A model generated the notes under the pieces. That model worked only from the letters and a program-made list of their open reading frames with translations. It had not been told where the DNA came from and did no database searches. DNA of 64,000 nucleotides from Sulfurimonas sp. HSL3-7. Lineage in GTDB: Bacteria > Campylobacterota > Campylobacteria > Campylobacterales > Sulfurimonadaceae. The DNA is taken from the NCBI RefSeq assembly GCF_039645985.1, contig NZ_CP147919.1:1798001-1862000 (forward strand), written 5' to 3'. The position numbers were made by a program, and so were the translations under genes. This document shows positions 9,468 to 54,119 of this stretch, piece after piece; position 1 is the stretch's first letter, and each line of letters begins with the position of its first letter.

Positions 9468-11408
9468 CTATTTTTTTATTGCATTTACGATCTTTTTGAG
9501 CTGCGCGATATCTTCTGTCTCATATTTTTTCGCATATTTTATCTTGTGATAGAGCAGATCTATCTCGTCTATCATGTCCGCGTTCACTTTCTCTTTGAGT
9601 CTACAAAGAAAGTCATGCATGCTCTCATTGGGCTGCTTTTCCAATCCCGATTTTTCGGCGTGTTTCATCAGCGGGCGCAGGATACACAGTACCCTGTCGT
9701 GACAACGTCGCGCACTGACAAAGATCGCTACACCTATCGAAAGTGCGGTAAATAGAATACCGTTGACGATAAACGCGACAAGATAAGTAGAACTGTTAAT
9801 AAGCGCATGCAGAATTTCCATCTGTTTGACACGGCTGTACTCCAATATCCACGTCTCAATGACATATTTCAGGTACATCAGATGCAGGTTAAGCCGTTTT
9901 AACCACTTCTGCCCCGTATTGCTGCCTTCAACACCGAGACGCTGCAAGACATCCCCCTCTATCCTTTCGGCAAAGGCTGTCGTCTCCACCCTCGTCCACC
10001 CCTTCTCCTGCAGGTAGACTTCTACCCACGCATGGGCGTCTGATTCTCTCACCACAAGATAATTCTCCAAAGCCTCGTTCGGATTGACCAAAAATCCCGT
10101 GACCACCCGTGCCGGAAGCCCGGAAGCCCGGGCCATATATGCGAATGCAGCCGCAAAATGGACGCAATACCCCTTTTTGCTCTCATACAAAAACGAATCG
10201 ACGGGTCTTTTTTTATCCAGGTGATCGGGTTTGAGGGTGTAGACAAGATTGAGTGAGCGAAAATAGGCGGCGATGTTTTCCAAGGTCTGCTTATCGCGTG
10301 GTGCAACCAGCTGCCTGGCACGTTCCGAACTGATAGCGTCACGTTTCCCGTAAAACCGGAGCGATGCTTCACGTATCTCTTTGCGTAAAGGGGCATTCAT
10401 CAAATATGACAGGTCGGAATGCATCTCGTAACGATATCTCTTGTCGATCTTTTTGTCGCTCACGATGGTGTAATCGTCCAGCAAGGTGCTTTTTGGAGGC
10501 GATGATGCCGGAATGTCAAGGGCATAGAGCCACTTTTCATTATGCGGATAGAGCGTGATACTGTAGGCAACCCGTCCGCCTGTAGCTATCGCCTTCCGGC
10601 CTGCAGCCAAAGGCTTTTTCAGACGATCCGGCAGCTGCCGGAACGAATCGTTGCGATCGACATAAAGGGTGGTCCCCCGAAAGTAGAGCCCCTTCTCTTT
10701 CGGAAGCCCGTTTTCAAAATAGACTTCCATCAGCACCTGCGAAGAGAGGTTCATCGCCGCATCGCTGCCCAGCGACATCACACCGTTGTGGCCACTTTTT
10801 TTGACGAAGTCATCATGAAACCCGTAAACAGCCTTTTCAAAACTAATACGCGGAAAGACAAGGAACAGTAGTGCGACAACAGGCAACGCGTAGGCAAAGA
10901 GCGTGAGAGCCATTTTCAGTGCATCATAGAGCGGAGTATGCATTTTCGACCAGACAAGCAGCAGCATAAAGACGAAGAGCGTAAAAACCGTATAGAAAAG
11001 CATCGGTACCGAGTTGTGCAGAAAAAACGAAAGCATCAGCAGCATCGCCGGTGAGAAGGCAAGGTAGAAGTTCAGCTCCCCTTTGAGACGCTGTAGGGAG
11101 ACTGCATAGATCAGCAGTGCGTTCAGCAGCGAGACAAAGAGGGTGAAGCGGTTCAGCGACGAGAAGTTGAAATCGGTGTAGAAGGAGCTTATGACCGACA
11201 GAACACCGAAGAGTGCCAAAGCGTACTGCAGCGCTTTTGGGACCTTTCTGCTCGCGATCAGCACGATAAGCACGGCCAGCAGGTAGACGAGCATGGGAAA
11301 CTTGAGCTTGTCCAGGTGGGGAACAATCGATAGGACCAGCGCTATATCGACGAGATAAAGGCTTTTCGGCGGTGATTTAATATCGGCCAAGGTACGTAAG
11401 AATCTCAT
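9468..11408 (-). CDS. Membrane-anchored transglutaminase-like protein (DUF3488/TgpA type)
   Basis: This 646-residue protein has about six membrane helices in residues 15-187, a periplasmic domain, a transglutaminase core, one more helix (about 540-565) and a cytoplasmic tail. The Cys-His pair is visible: Cys415 in KKGYCVHFA and His459 in SDAHAWVEV. The third acid falls in WTRVETTA (about Glu475), where most family members have DPTA. Such proteins always travel with MoxR and DUF58 partners, as here. The gene overlaps the DUF58 gene by 32 nt and is last in the operon. Enzymatic role in vivo is unknown; an envelope function is inferred from topology. Confidence 0.88.
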   Translation of the reverse strand: MRFLRTLADIKSPPKSLYLVDIALVLSIVPHLDKLKFPMLVYLLAVLIVLIASRKVPKALQYALALFGVLSVISSFYTDFNFSSLNRFTLFVSLLNALLIYAVSLQRLKGELNFYLAFSPAMLLMLSFFLHNSVPMLFYTVFTLFVFMLLLVWSKMHTPLYDALKMALTLFAYALPVVALLFLVFPRISFEKAVYGFHDDFVKKSGHNGVMSLGSDAAMNLSSQVLMEVYFENGLPKEKGLYFRGTTLYVDRNDSFRQLPDRLKKPLAAGRKAIATGGRVAYSITLYPHNEKWLYALDIPASSPPKSTLLDDYTIVSDKKIDKRYRYEMHSDLSYLMNAPLRKEIREASLRFYGKRDAISSERARQLVAPRDKQTLENIAAYFRSLNLVYTLKPDHLDKKRPVDSFLYESKKGYCVHFAAAFAYMARASGLPARVVTGFLVNPNEALENYLVVRESDAHAWVEVYLQEKGWTRVETTAFAERIEGDVLQRLGVEGSNTGQKWLKRLNLHLMYLKYVIETWILEYSRVKQMEILHALINSSTYLVAFIVNGILFTALSIGVAIFVSARRCHDRVLCILRPLMKHAEKSGLEKQPNESMHDFLCRLKEKVNADMIDEIDLLYHKIKYAKKYETEDIAQLKKIVNAIKK

Positions 11409-49951: not shown

Positions 49952-50455
49952 GTGAATAAAATATTAGAACTTGTTGATAAGTATATTGTGCCCTTTGTGT
50001 TCGCCAGGAACAACGAGCCCCTGCTTTTTCGCGAACTGCTCAAAGCCAACAAGATGTACGATGACGGTCTGAACCTCGAGGGGAAGATACCCGGCACCCG
50101 CGTCAGGATAGGTCGGAACATCCTTGTCTTTCTGGTCATCTGGCACGTCATCCTGCTGCCGCTGAGCGCCCTCTTTCACAGAGAGCTGGCCAAGATCGAC
50201 TGCCATCTGCTCATCATCGCGGCGGTGATCTTCACCGGCTTCTTCTTCGGCACCTACTCCATCTTCAAGGCGTGGCTTGTTGACCGTGTCTCACTGAAGA
50301 TCATCAAAGAGGCGTGGCATAACCACTATCCGCATTTTGCCTATGAGAAGCACCATCAACAGGTCTCCCGTCTCTACGGCAAAGCGCTTGACAAAGAGCT
50401 GCCTGCCAAAGAGATTCAGCTCTATATTCTCGACCATATGATCGAAGAGGAGTAA
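49952..50455 (+). CDS. Two-helix membrane protein of unknown function
   Basis: The 167-residue protein begins with GTG and has a soluble N-terminus (IVPFVFARNNEPLLFRELL), two membrane helices (about 57-76 and 85-105) and a charged C-terminal helical region with several His and Tyr (HNHYPHFAYEKHHQQ). It has its own upstream region and is followed by the long gene-free repeat array. Family not recognised. Confidence 0.7.
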   Translation: MNKILELVDKYIVPFVFARNNEPLLFRELLKANKMYDDGLNLEGKIPGTRVRIGRNILVFLVIWHVILLPLSALFHRELAKIDCHLLIIAAVIFTGFFFGTYSIFKAWLVDRVSLKIIKEAWHNHYPHFAYEKHHQQVSRLYGKALDKELPAKEIQLYILDHMIEEE

Positions 50456-50550
50456 TCTTCGATCTCAACTTTATATACGCATACTCACTTCCGCCAATAG
50501 ATATTCTTTCTCTTTTTAGACTTTTTTAATTACTTCATATCGCTAGAGAT

Positions 50551-50975
50551 GCTACTTTTTTCTTTGCGTGCACAAAGAAAAACCTAGCGGAAAAAAGAAA
50601 GTGCAATACCCTCCGGCCAGAAGTTACTGCTCAAACTTTGACTTTCATCTCTGACGCACAAAAAATACAGACTTCATTGATAATACAAAATCAAATGAGA
50701 GTCTGTTACTGCCCACAATGAGCCAAAGCCGAATTGAAAAGCGTCAGCTTTTAAATTAAAAATAGATGCGTCACCGCTTGGCTCTTTTTCGAAAAATCTG
50801 CAGAGCGAGCCGGAGGTATATTACTTCCGTTAAGAAAACGCATTGAACGTAGTGACCCATGCGTTTTTAGGATGGAATATATCGTAGGCTTGGTACCCGA
50901 CAGCCTGTCGGGCTCGAAGCCGTTTCGAGAGCTTTTTTGCTTACTTTTTTTGCGGCGTAAAAAAGTAAGAGAGAA
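50551..50975. repeat. Hairpin-module array, copy 1
   Basis: Blocks in order: A hairpin (50551-50600, arms TTTTTCTTTG/CAAAGAAAAA), a CCCTCCGGCCAGAAGTTACTG spacer of the array type, a truncated C block near 50650, B block (50715-50818, AAAAGC/GCTTTT inside GAGCCAA/TTGGCTC), D palindrome (CCCGACAGCCTGTCGGG, 50896-50912), and E hairpin (50936-50970, arms CTTACTTTTTT/AAAAAAGTAAG). There is no credible open frame in this stretch. Confidence 0.75.
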
Positions 50976-51059
50976 GTCAGGAATATTTGTTATTTCTAAC
51001 AATTTCACAACATTGTTGCAAGTCTACCTTCTTCTTTTAATGCTTTTTAATAGTAGTAA

Positions 51060-51206
51060 TGTCACTTTTTTCTTTTGCGTGCCCAAAAGAAGAAGTAACC
51101 AAAAAAGAAAAGGGCAAGAACCTGACGGATACCGTTACTGCTAGAACTTTTACTTGTCAACAAATGGCATTCCGTCACTTCTGCCGGAATTAATGCCATG
51201 ACGCAT
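51060..51206. repeat. Hairpin-module array, copy 2 (partial)
   Basis: This copy holds only block A (arms TTCTTTTG/CAAAAGAA) and block C (51161-51206). In block C ATTCCG pairs with CGGAAT, and an outer ATGGCATT pairs with AATGCCAT. Blocks B, D and E are missing; the next copy begins at 51346. Confidence 0.7.
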
Positions 51207-51345
51207 ATTGAAATACAACCATTACTGAAAATACAAAATTGGATAAAGGAAAGAGTGTAGGAGACAAAAGTCATTCGTTCCTACATCTTCGCCACAATAC
51301 ATCTAAGCTAAACAACTTCTTTTGAATGAGTTTTGATAGCTAGTA

Positions 51346-51893
51346 TGTCACTTTTTTCTCTGCTCATCCAGAGAAAAACCTGACGGAAAAAAGAGAAGAT
51401 GATACCCTCCGGCCAAAAGTCACTGCTAGAACTTTCACCTCTCTCCCGATGGCATTCCGTCACTTCTGCCGGAATTAATGTTCTGACGTGTAAAAAGCAC
51501 AAACTTCAATGAAAAATTAAAATTGCGAGAAAGTCCATCACTCTGCACAAGAAGGCGAAGCCGCATTGTGAAAAGCGTCGGCTTTTAAAGTCAAATCAAT
51601 GCGTCACCGTTTGGCTCTTTTCACAACATCTGCAGAGTGAGCTGGAACTCTATTTTACTCGTTAAGAAAATCACGCTGTCTGAGCTAGGGAGTGCCAAAG
51701 GCGTTAAAAAAAGGCAAATTTCTTTGCGTTTTTTAGCCGACGCGCCAAACCGTTATGCGAAGCATCGGTGCGGCAGTTTTTAGGAAGGAGCGAGTGTAAA
51801 GAAGGTACCCGACAGCGTGTCGGGCTGTGACCAAAGGAAATGCCCTCGGGTAAAGCCGATTCGAGAGCTTTTTTGCTTACTTTTTTTGCGGCG
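51346..51893. repeat. Hairpin-module array, copy 3
   Basis: The order is A (arms TTTTTCTCTG/CAGAGAAAAA), C (51448-51490), B (51545-51650, AAAAGC/GCTTTT inside CGCATTG/CAATGCG), D (CCCGACAGCGTGTCGGG at about 51808-51824) and the left half of E (to 51893). E lacks its right arm because other sequence (51894-51985) follows. There is extra sequence of about 120 bp between B and D compared with copy 1. Confidence 0.75.
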
Positions 51894-51985
51894 ACACAGC
51901 GCTAAAGCGCCGCACAGGGCGGAACTTAAAGAGCTAAAGCTCTATGCAGGGTGACACTAAATGTCACATCGTAAAATTCCGCATC
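51894..51985. other. Cluster of three small hairpins inside copy 3
   Basis: GCG-CTAAAG-CGC (within 51899-51910), GAG-CTAAAG-CTC (51931-51942) and GTGACA-CTAAA-TGTCAC (51951-51967) share a CTAAA loop. GCGGAA (51918-51923) pairs with TTCCGC (51977-51982), enclosing the last two hairpins as in a branched RNA. CAGGG follows the first two hairpins at like spacing. Confidence 0.6.
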
Positions 51986-52090
51986 GTGAAAAAAGAAAGA
52001 GTATGATCGATAAAGCTCATGATCTTTGGCATCTCCGCCTCAATAAATCTGAGCAGCACAACTTCTTTTGAATATTTTTTGATAGCAGGG

Positions 52091-52555
52091 ATGTCACTTT
52101 TCTTTCTTGCTAGCTCAAGAAAGAAACCTGACGGAAAAGAAAGAAGAGCTATACCCTTCGGCCAAAATTCACTGCCAAAACTTTCACCTTTCAACAGATG
52201 GCATTCCGTCACTTCTGCCGGAATTAATCTCCGGACGCATCACAACATCAACTTCTTTGACATTTTAAATTGTGTAAAAATTTTGATGTTCCGTACAATG
52301 AGGCGTAGCCGAATTGAAAAGCATCAGCTTTTAATTTCAAATCAATGCGTCACCGCTTAGCTCTTTTCGTGGCATCTGCAGCGTTGACTGTAAGGAGAGA
52401 AGGAGCGTTAAAAAAACGGCAATGTTTGACCGTAGGGAGTTTTGTCGTTTTTAGCGAGTGAAGGACTGAAAGGAAAGCAGTCGGCAGCTAGCCGACCGCG
52501 AAGCCGTCACGAGAGCTTTTTCGTTTCCTTTTTTGCGACGTAAAAAGGAAAGAGT
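52091..52555. repeat. Hairpin-module array, copy 4
   Basis: The order is A (arms TTTCTTTCTTG/CAAGAAAGAAA), C (52196-52240), B (52296-52392, AAAAGC/GCTTTT), D as a different palindrome (GTCGGCAGCTAGCCGAC, about 52481-52497) and E (arms TTTCCTTTTT/AAAAAGGAAA, about 52520-52552). Arm sequences differ from the other copies yet remain complementary. truD ends 70 bp farther on. Confidence 0.75.
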
Positions 52556-52622
52556 ATGGTTAATAAAAGTTAATTGTTCAACAAACTTCAAAGACACAAT
52601 ATAAGTCTTTACCCCTTAAATC

Positions 52623-53771
52623 CTAATACTCATCATCGTAATCATCCGGATCATCGAACCGGAAAGAAGCAGACTTCTTCGTTTTCTTAGGCTCGTGCAC
52701 GCCCTCTATATCCCGGTTGGCGAGGTTCTCCAGAAGCACGGTGGCGTAGGAGCCTTTCGGCAGTGCGAAAGAGAGCTCATAGACGCTCTCTTTTTTGAGG
52801 TACTTCGACTTTATCTCCTTGGGGTAGACCCAGGCGACGCGGCGTTCGCCGGCCATCGTCACCTCGTCATCGTCATGACGTGCTTCGATCGCACCGGCCG
52901 CGCCGCGCGAGCGCCACACCTTGTTACCTACCAGCAGTCCCGTCGGTTGAAGCTTGCGCTCTTTGTAGGGCTTTTTAACCGACTGGAGGTCGGTGACATT
53001 GACCCATTTGCCACTTTGAACGTCGAGCATGATCTCGCCCGGAAGCACCTTGAAGATGGAGGACTGCCCCTGAAGCTGTTTGACCTCTTCGGTCGAAAGC
53101 CCCCACTTCTTCTCAAAGAGATCCAGGTCCATGTAGTCCAGATCGCGGCAGAGACGGACCCGTTCGTCCAGCCAGTCGTTGAAAAGGTAGGACTGGTAGG
53201 CATTGGTCATCAGCTTGTTCAGACGGCGGTCGCGGAAGACCTTGGAGCCGTGCGCCGCCTCTTTGGACTTCTCGAAGTGGTCTTCGTCCTGCCCGAAACG
53301 CTGGTACCCGAAGTAGTTCGGCATCCCCTGACGGACGATCTCCTGAAGCACCTCATCGAGCTTCTCGGCACTTTTCGGCGTCACGTCGTGAAGGCGGATC
53401 TTGAAGCGGTTCCCTTTGAGGTCACCGATGTTGAGCTTCTCTTTATGGAGGAACGAGTCGAGTATCTCTATCTGCGGGTGCTTGAACTTCGCAAAATACT
53501 TCTCATACGAGGCCGGCATCGAGATGTACTGCGTGGTCGTCGCGTACTTGTCCTTCAATCCCGCGTAGGAGATGTTGTGGAACTTAGTCTGCTCCTCCAG
53601 AACGGCGATCATCTCCATAGTGGACATGTCGGTCTTTTTGATGTGCAGATGCAGGTAATTGCCTCTTTTGCCCTCTTCGTAAAGGGGGATCTCATCGACG
53701 ATGAAATCCTCGCGGGTCGGTTTAAAGCTGAATGTCACGGGATTATGGTTCTGTATGTATTTGCGTTTCAT
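52623..53771 (-). CDS. truD: tRNA pseudouridine(13) synthase TruD
   Basis: TruD converts U13 of certain tRNAs to pseudouridine. I start at the ATG at 53771 (KRKYIQNHNPVTFSFKPTREDF); 30 more codons are open upstream but lie in promoter-like sequence. The 382 residues have REDFIVDEIPLYEEG, the catalytic Asp in YAGLKDKYATTTQ, LKGNRFKIRLH and NYFGYQRFGQDEDHF. The C-terminus is acidic (DDPDDYDDEY). It is monocistronic. Confidence 0.95.
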   Translation of the reverse strand: MKRKYIQNHNPVTFSFKPTREDFIVDEIPLYEEGKRGNYLHLHIKKTDMSTMEMIAVLEEQTKFHNISYAGLKDKYATTTQYISMPASYEKYFAKFKHPQIEILDSFLHKEKLNIGDLKGNRFKIRLHDVTPKSAEKLDEVLQEIVRQGMPNYFGYQRFGQDEDHFEKSKEAAHGSKVFRDRRLNKLMTNAYQSYLFNDWLDERVRLCRDLDYMDLDLFEKKWGLSTEEVKQLQGQSSIFKVLPGEIMLDVQSGKWVNVTDLQSVKKPYKERKLQPTGLLVGNKVWRSRGAAGAIEARHDDDEVTMAGERRVAWVYPKEIKSKYLKKESVYELSFALPKGSYATVLLENLANRDIEGVHEPKKTKKSASFRFDDPDDYDDEY

Positions 53772-54119
53772 GGGCGTATTATATCTTTTATTTCCACTGT
53801 ACTGTCTGCGATGAAAACATGAGGTTGTCAACCCTTTTTTCTTCCAATGATCATCTTTCAAATACCGGACAAAATGTACGGATATTGTCTAAATCGGCAA
53901 ATATCCCTACACTTTGTCAAGATATTGGCCTTAAAACCAATATTTAGACATTAAAAATGATTATCTTATCAGTGAAAATATCAATTACAATATAGAAATA
54001 TTGCATCTTGACAAATATTTTAAAATACAAGAACATATTTTTTGTTAGATATTGAGGAGATATCAGGTTAAAAGCTATACCATGTCAGATATTAAATAGT
54101 TATATAAAAAGGAGAAATC
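53772..54119. other. AT-rich gap with nested inverted repeats
   Basis: I see no gene. TGTCTAAAT (53886-53894) pairs with ATTTAGACA (53942-53950), ATATTGG with CCAATAT (53922-53943), and GACAAA with TTTGTC (about 53868-53918). A TTGACA at 54008-54013 could be a -35. AAGGAG at about 54109-54114 serves the next gene. AT content rises sharply from here to about 56100. Confidence 0.5.

Follow-up and report, generated by a model that had tools for sequence, protein, structure and literature searches.

The array between positions 50551 and 52551 of the window (the whole 64,000-nucleotide stretch of the Sulfurimonas sp. HSL3-7 genome that was analysed) is best explained, with confidence that is about evenly balanced, as copies of a non-coding, chromosome-resident repeat of the BIME/REPIN-like kind, whose inverted ends would be intrastrand-triplex pseudoknots selected for their folding. 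The loop pairing, the stem and the third strand of these ends covary, and the copies are numerous, lie between genes and hardly occur in phages or on small plasmids. If this reading is correct, many genomes in several phyla hold tens of copies of one folded-repeat family, which annotation pipelines partly misread as small proteins.

The region from 50456 to 52622 is flanked by convergent genes, both aimed into it, and the array within it comprises three full A-C-B-D-E units and one partial (A-C) unit. The original prediction had described five blocks recurring in this order from the starts of the three units, with a partial A-C copy, and this arrangement was recovered by a repeat search and module BLAST, the partial copy starting at 51061 and block C being degenerate in unit 1. 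Copies of a block, of which there are three or four, are 60-87% identical over 39-94 bases, which is far beyond chance. In the features below, R1 is a covariance model trained on 36 foreign units alone, with the window excluded, and the names of the two neighbouring genes are those of the original prediction.

49952..50455, plus strand: left neighbour, a 167-aa ORF ("membrane protein"), 3' end toward the array
50551..50605, fold assigned to the minus strand: block A of unit 1, end pseudoknot with the stem GCTACTTTTTTCTTTG/CAAAGAAAAACCTAGC, the purine third strand GGAAAAAAGAAAG and a TGCA loop that pairs with TGCA
50715..50789, no strand: block B of unit 1, GAAAAGCGTCAGCTTTT hairpin plus GCGTCACCG (repeat search, module BLAST)
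50786..50838, no strand: block D of unit 1 (repeat search, module BLAST)
50913..50969, plus strand: block E of unit 1, opposite end; hairpin CTCGAAGCCGTTTCGAG, pyrimidine third strand GCTTTTTTG, stem CTTACTTTTTT/AAAAAAGTAAG
50927-50969, plus strand: R1 match in block E of unit 1, E 9.6e-6
51061..51116, minus strand: block A of the partial unit, loop TGCCC pairing with GGGCA; R1 match 51061-51112, E 5e-6
51166..51197, no strand: block C hairpin of the partial unit, GGCATTCCGTCACTTCTGCCGGAATTAATGCC
51347..51402, minus strand: block A of unit 2, loop TCATC pairing with GATGA
51451..51479, no strand: block C hairpin of unit 2 (repeat search)
51549..51621, no strand: block B of unit 2 (repeat search, module BLAST)
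51618..51670, no strand: block D of unit 2 (repeat search, module BLAST)
51863..51999 (about), plus strand: block E of unit 2, hairpin loop enlarged by several small hairpins in a row, GCGCTAAAGCGC, GAGCTAAAGCTC, GACACTAAATGTC
52093..52151, minus strand: block A of unit 3, loop TAGCTC pairing with GAGCTA; third strand GAAAAGAAAGAA mirrors AAGAAAGAAA
52200..52229, no strand: block C hairpin of unit 3 (repeat search)
52295..52367, no strand: block B of unit 3 (repeat search, module BLAST)
52364..52416, no strand: block D of unit 3 (repeat search)
52511..52551, plus strand: block E of unit 3, opposite end; covarying arms TTTCCTTTTT/AAAAAGGAAA, third strand now CTTTTTC; weak R1 match, E 0.83
52623..53861, minus strand: right neighbour truD, 3' end toward the array

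Folded as single-stranded DNA, unit 1 is far better than its shuffles (z -6.1) and unit 3 moderately better (z -2.4), and a promoter scan stayed at chance level. A weak model match elsewhere in the window, at 9586-9613 (E 0.08), is probably due to chance. The loop expansion of the E hairpin by small hairpins with TAAA loops (51863-51999) is also present in loci L017, L018, L024 and L238. A tandem array of units of about 559 bp, with the same A...E order as in the window, occurs in genome G343 (L283, C1:332073-333232), and the linker from E to the next A measures about 90-115 bp there and 91-93 bp in the window.

In block A, a hairpin (GTCACTTTTTTCTCTG-loop-CAGAGAAAAACCTGAC) comes first; behind it lie a second purine strand and, after that, bases that can pair with the loop of the hairpin. 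Read 5' to 3' on the other strand, the order becomes helix strand, pyrimidine strand, stem, loop and stem, which is that of an H-type pseudoknot, with a first loop that lies parallel to the stem's purine arm and is compatible with a Hoogsteen third strand. By sequence, the three consecutive blocks are able to form the Hoogsteen or reverse-Hoogsteen triads that characterise intrastrand triplex repeats. Across phyla, the motif GTNAC...GTNAC and an A-rich tract in the centre are conserved. A single dispersed repeat has blocks A and E as its inverted ends, since Caballeronia ends repeatedly face each other at a distance of 430-530 bp and since the foreign-only model matches A on the minus and E on the plus strand. 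Both this relation between A and E and the presence of a third strand go beyond the original prediction. The E ends in the window's genome are less regular than the A ends, which weighs against the explanation preferred here.

Evidence for the fold comes from changes shared among the three strands. In the window's genome, 18 A ends, with 9 arm and 13 loop sequences among them, were compared with 5000 shuffles. Pairing of the loop with the flank is found in all 18, over 4-7 bases (mean 5.33, shuffled maximum 4.06), and the third strand is an exact mirror of nine arm bases in 17, with 8 of 9 matching in the remaining end (mean mirror identity 8.94 of 9, shuffled maximum 8.39). A mirror relation, in which it differs from an inverted repeat, cannot be produced by template copying. 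The idea of a decayed element is not supported for the ends, given that every one of these 18 readable A ends keeps the pseudoknot and all but one a perfect mirror strand.

The same relations hold across phyla, where the loop complement is 3.68 against a shuffled maximum of 3.26. In a set of 36 selected distinct units, some of them picked for a complement of at least three bases, which favours the helix and not the third strand, double changes occur at all six pairs of the pseudoknot helix, with a covariation of 0.227 as compared with 0.105 in shuffled sets (0 of 500 reaching the observed value), and every slid structure is worse than the unslid one on both cells paired and covariation. All third-strand positions in these units (249 of 249) are T.A-T or C.G-C in one register, while registers up to three bases off give 44-73% compatible triples. 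A looser count over 155 units yielded AA 953, GG 141, AG 11 and GA 7, with matching bases in 1094 of 1112. The foreign-unit model recovers the A block of the window's partial unit, which among the window's four A blocks is nearest to the cross-phylum form, on the minus strand (E 5e-6) and the E block of unit 1 on the plus strand (E 1e-5); judged by such matches, the window's ends are shown to belong to the same element as those in other phyla. Covariation of three strands is rare evolutionary evidence for a triple helix and, if the reading is right, would make it possible to test directly if triplexes are of importance to living bacteria, which is unsettled for BoxC/PIT elements.

About 20 further sites in the window's genome (2.87 Mb, one contig) carry the element, often in parts only, and the 20 sites examined there, the window included, are all intergenic. 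Element DNA is matched in 26 of 101 genomes of the same family. In the window's phylum, 27 of 298 genomes were matched at an E-value of 0.01, many of them weakly, and the distribution is therefore patchy. A generic end pattern finds at least 120 matching stretches in a collection of species genomes, and zero or nearly zero when it is read backwards. Among the matches listed, the same end is present in about seven phyla as read from organism names, with Pseudomonadota, Bacteroidota, Negativicutes and other Bacillota, Myxococcota, a Nitrospirae MAG and Desulfuromonadales represented; an element match in Ilyobacter (Fusobacteriota) was obtained by BLAST. Model matches number 149 in Silvimonas, 131 in a Cystobacterineae MAG, 100 in Chitinophaga, 97 in a Selenomonas MAG and 84 in Caballeronia. 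No match was found in E. coli with the one variant queried.

Almost all units lie on chromosomes or very large replicons. Plasmid matches lie mostly on replicons of at least hundreds of kilobases, with a few on plasmids of 29-77 kb, no phage record covers 80% of the query by BLAST, and 7 among 2.9 million viral contigs were matched, all of these searches using single variants and missing diverged copies. Ordinary plasmid or IS-like mobility was rejected on the basis of the plasmid matches, and a phage origin on the basis of the phage and viral searches. A fixed neighbouring gene was likewise rejected, as no recurrent neighbour family is evident among the clusters of flanking ORFs, the largest of which are few and mixed, several being element DNA in translation.

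The strand on which the fold is conserved has a bearing on function. On the A strand, the GTNAC clamp contains 34 C.A/A.C cells as against 2 G.T/T.G cells, so the outward-reading strand, which is the pyrimidine-motif strand, retains U.G/G.U wobbles. These counts indicate that the conserved fold probably sits on the outward-reading strand, with the wobble arising mainly from one pair position and G.T being tolerated in DNA too. Wobble in the pseudoknot helix gives no strand signal, and the C hairpin has a few T.G pairs on the plus strand, opposite to that of A and too few for use. Of the structured RNA array that had originally been proposed, the structured nucleic acid is strongly supported, and it may be either RNA or single-stranded DNA. 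Mosaic and tandem copies are also compatible with a recombination substrate, and these two proposals and that of a decayed element are not mutually exclusive.

A tentative alternative, rather improbable as it stands, is that the repeat is a two-way 3'-end signal acting at the RNA level. Transcripts from either of two convergent neighbours would cross the palindrome, and their last part would be the outward-reading end; its hairpin, U-rich strand and U.A-U/C+.G-C triple-helix pseudoknot would stop RNA polymerase or protect the 3' end. The wobble-marked strand carries the pyrimidine motif, and Holder et al. 2015 (PMC4666352) state that no other intrastrand triplex motif can form in RNA. U.G is the most frequent pair at one stem position, and no third-strand A faces A on the outward strand, although the purine motif would permit the equivalent. 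The genomic context points the same way, with 60 convergent and 21 divergent gene contexts (baseline 132 and 121), 23 of 27 Selenomonadales units lying behind the 3' end of a co-directional gene, and a triplex unit shortly beyond the 5S rRNA of six G343 rRNA operons (L281, L282, L284-L287; the 5S was identified in one, and the others share the 23S-5S end sequence). In the window, terminator-like hairpins with a T run precede block E in units 1 and 2. However, the neighbouring mRNA in Selenomonadales bears the purine version and not the RNA-competent strand, Silvimonas lacks such a bias, and many copies lie between co-directional genes. The related PIT motif, moreover, is reported to have no terminator activity (cited in PMC4666352), and that paper describes the TM/BoxC/PIT family as being without promoter or terminator activity. 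It is similarly doubtful that the repeats form a widespread class of element, present in about seven phyla with up to about 150 ends per genome, whose basis is a natural Hoogsteen triple-helix pseudoknot that works at the RNA level, at the 3' ends of transcripts.

In the preferred explanation, that of a chromosomal repeat with selected ends, selection would act on the folded outward-reading strand, in which a pyrimidine third strand would complete an H-type pseudoknot with a run of T.A-T/C.G-C triples. The fold would form on single strands exposed in replication or transcription, and the folded end may be recognised by a host or trans-acting enzyme that copies or spreads the element, the spread presumably being DNA-level copying. 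At gene 3' ends, the folded end could also serve as a cap or as a structural block. Arrays like that in the window would then result from duplication in tandem and from mosaic shuffling.

It is unlikely that the repeat is instead a passive instability motif, in which a functionless triplex-forming sequence arises and persists by stalling polymerases and provoking duplication, a view that has been put forward for the G/C-rich TM motifs. The fold class is shared with the PIT/TM motifs, which PMC4666352 links to genome instability, and tandem units, expanded loops and truncated copies all exist. The site at the 3' end of truD, whose protein has 80% identity in four relatives, is also variable. 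The array is found there in the window's genome, a hairpin remnant alone between the same two neighbours in G043, a unit beside a different neighbour in G049, and a different neighbour with no unit seen in G035, the last three being draft assemblies. However, the GTNAC clamp and the loop-pairing helix are kept across phyla despite sequence change in every strand, which is unexpected for a by-product.

That the blocks are sites for a sequence-specific DNA-binding protein and palindromic by chance is very improbable; conserved GTNAC...GTNAC motifs and the A-rich tract would suit such sites, but the arms (nine types in the window's genome), loops and third strands vary while the structure is kept, and a mirror rather than an inverted relation is unexpected of a protein site. 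Short protein-coding genes can be virtually discounted, for although short ORFs occur on both strands, those tested in the region (45-113 aa) have no Pfam or NCBIfam match above the cut-off, and conservation across phyla tracks base pairing. The original prediction of a region without a credible gene agrees with this result, and its statement that similar DNA is mis-called as protein elsewhere was right in kind, as element ORFs encode, for example, '..VTFFAAPKKVTKERRPQ..' and '..CFAKESNQRK..'.

Among published repeats, the closest relatives are the G/C-rich intrastrand-triplex repeats BoxC/PIT/TM, treated by Holder et al. 2015 (PMC4666352, citing Hoyne and Maher) together with intrastrand triplex repeats in general; A/T-rich motifs are counted in bulk there. 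Like BoxC/PIT/TM_ECO, the present repeat has three consecutive homopurine/homopyrimidine blocks on a single strand (class II one way, class IV the other), and is multi-copy and dispersed, with inverted pairs. In contrast to the G/C-rich TM, it is A/T-rich, with a GTNAC clamp and a loop-to-flank pseudoknot helix, and its ends cap a body that is a palindromic mosaic several hundred bases long, in many phyla. The TM consensus, CCCTCNCCCN3-6GGGNGAGGGN3GGGNGAGGG, does not occur in any of the 299 fetched loci, among which are copies of the element, even with gaps relaxed to 3-9 and 2-6. The present repeat is therefore of the same structural kind, but not a member of the TM/BoxC/PIT family. In the accessible parts of that paper, no pseudoknot (the word itself is absent), A/T-rich family or long palindromic element is described. 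The exact element sequence does not occur in the open-licence papers searched, and an earlier description elsewhere is possible.

Other known systems share part of this organisation. Like BIMEs and REPINs, the repeats are intergenic non-coding mosaics of ordered palindromic blocks, with inverted end pairs, a high copy number and a location at gene 3' ends. However, the present units are much longer and have triplex pseudoknot ends, and the Y1 (RAYT-type) transposase with which BIMEs/REPINs are associated is absent from 5 of 14 element-rich genomes, so that the REPIN mechanism is not general. The window's genome contains two Y1-type transposase genes (C1:1571473 and 2353733), neither of which adjoins a known copy, and RAYT was rejected as the general mover on both grounds. 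Nor did the analysis turn up any other enzyme that spreads the repeat. MITEs and foldback elements likewise have inverted ends and palindromic gene-less bodies, whereas the present repeat is nearly absent from small plasmids and phages and has ends conserved across phyla.

Telomerase RNA and the SAM-II riboswitch are triple-helix pseudoknot RNAs. The predicted fold of the ends resembles them in being an H-type pseudoknot whose pyrimidine loop lies in the deep groove and makes U.A-U and C+.G-C triples, but the present fold is repeated, occurs at both ends of a repeat and is known here from DNA sequence. A known structured RNA was rejected, as no curated Rfam family matches the element, either in the window or in the scanned loci. 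The other Rfam matches in those loci are to tRNA, rRNA, SRP and one TwoAYGGAY (L158, 1469-1532, minus strand), which lies about 60 bp from an end at 1378-1413.

The bodies between the ends are palindromic beyond shuffles in 33 of 36 cases and differ between copies, and their palindromes may perhaps come from replication errors and not from selection. In genome G101, near-identical ends, extending beyond 110 bp, enclose differing bodies. Several variant copies were also observed. One 1.5-kb element (L116:1600-3069) has nested inverted arms around two ORFs of 156 and 134 aa, as if these were cargo, and the hairpin of a Selenomonas unit (L178:9159-9433) is broken by another structured insert. Stenotrophobium bodies (L195, L196, L229) hold a nested palindrome (..CTCACTGCGTTCGGGATGAC..) that resembles a different repeat family. 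Finally, some Caballeronia elements (L197, L201, L202, L206) are preceded by a truncated second outer end that is cut inside the hairpin (ACTTTCTTTGCACAAGG).
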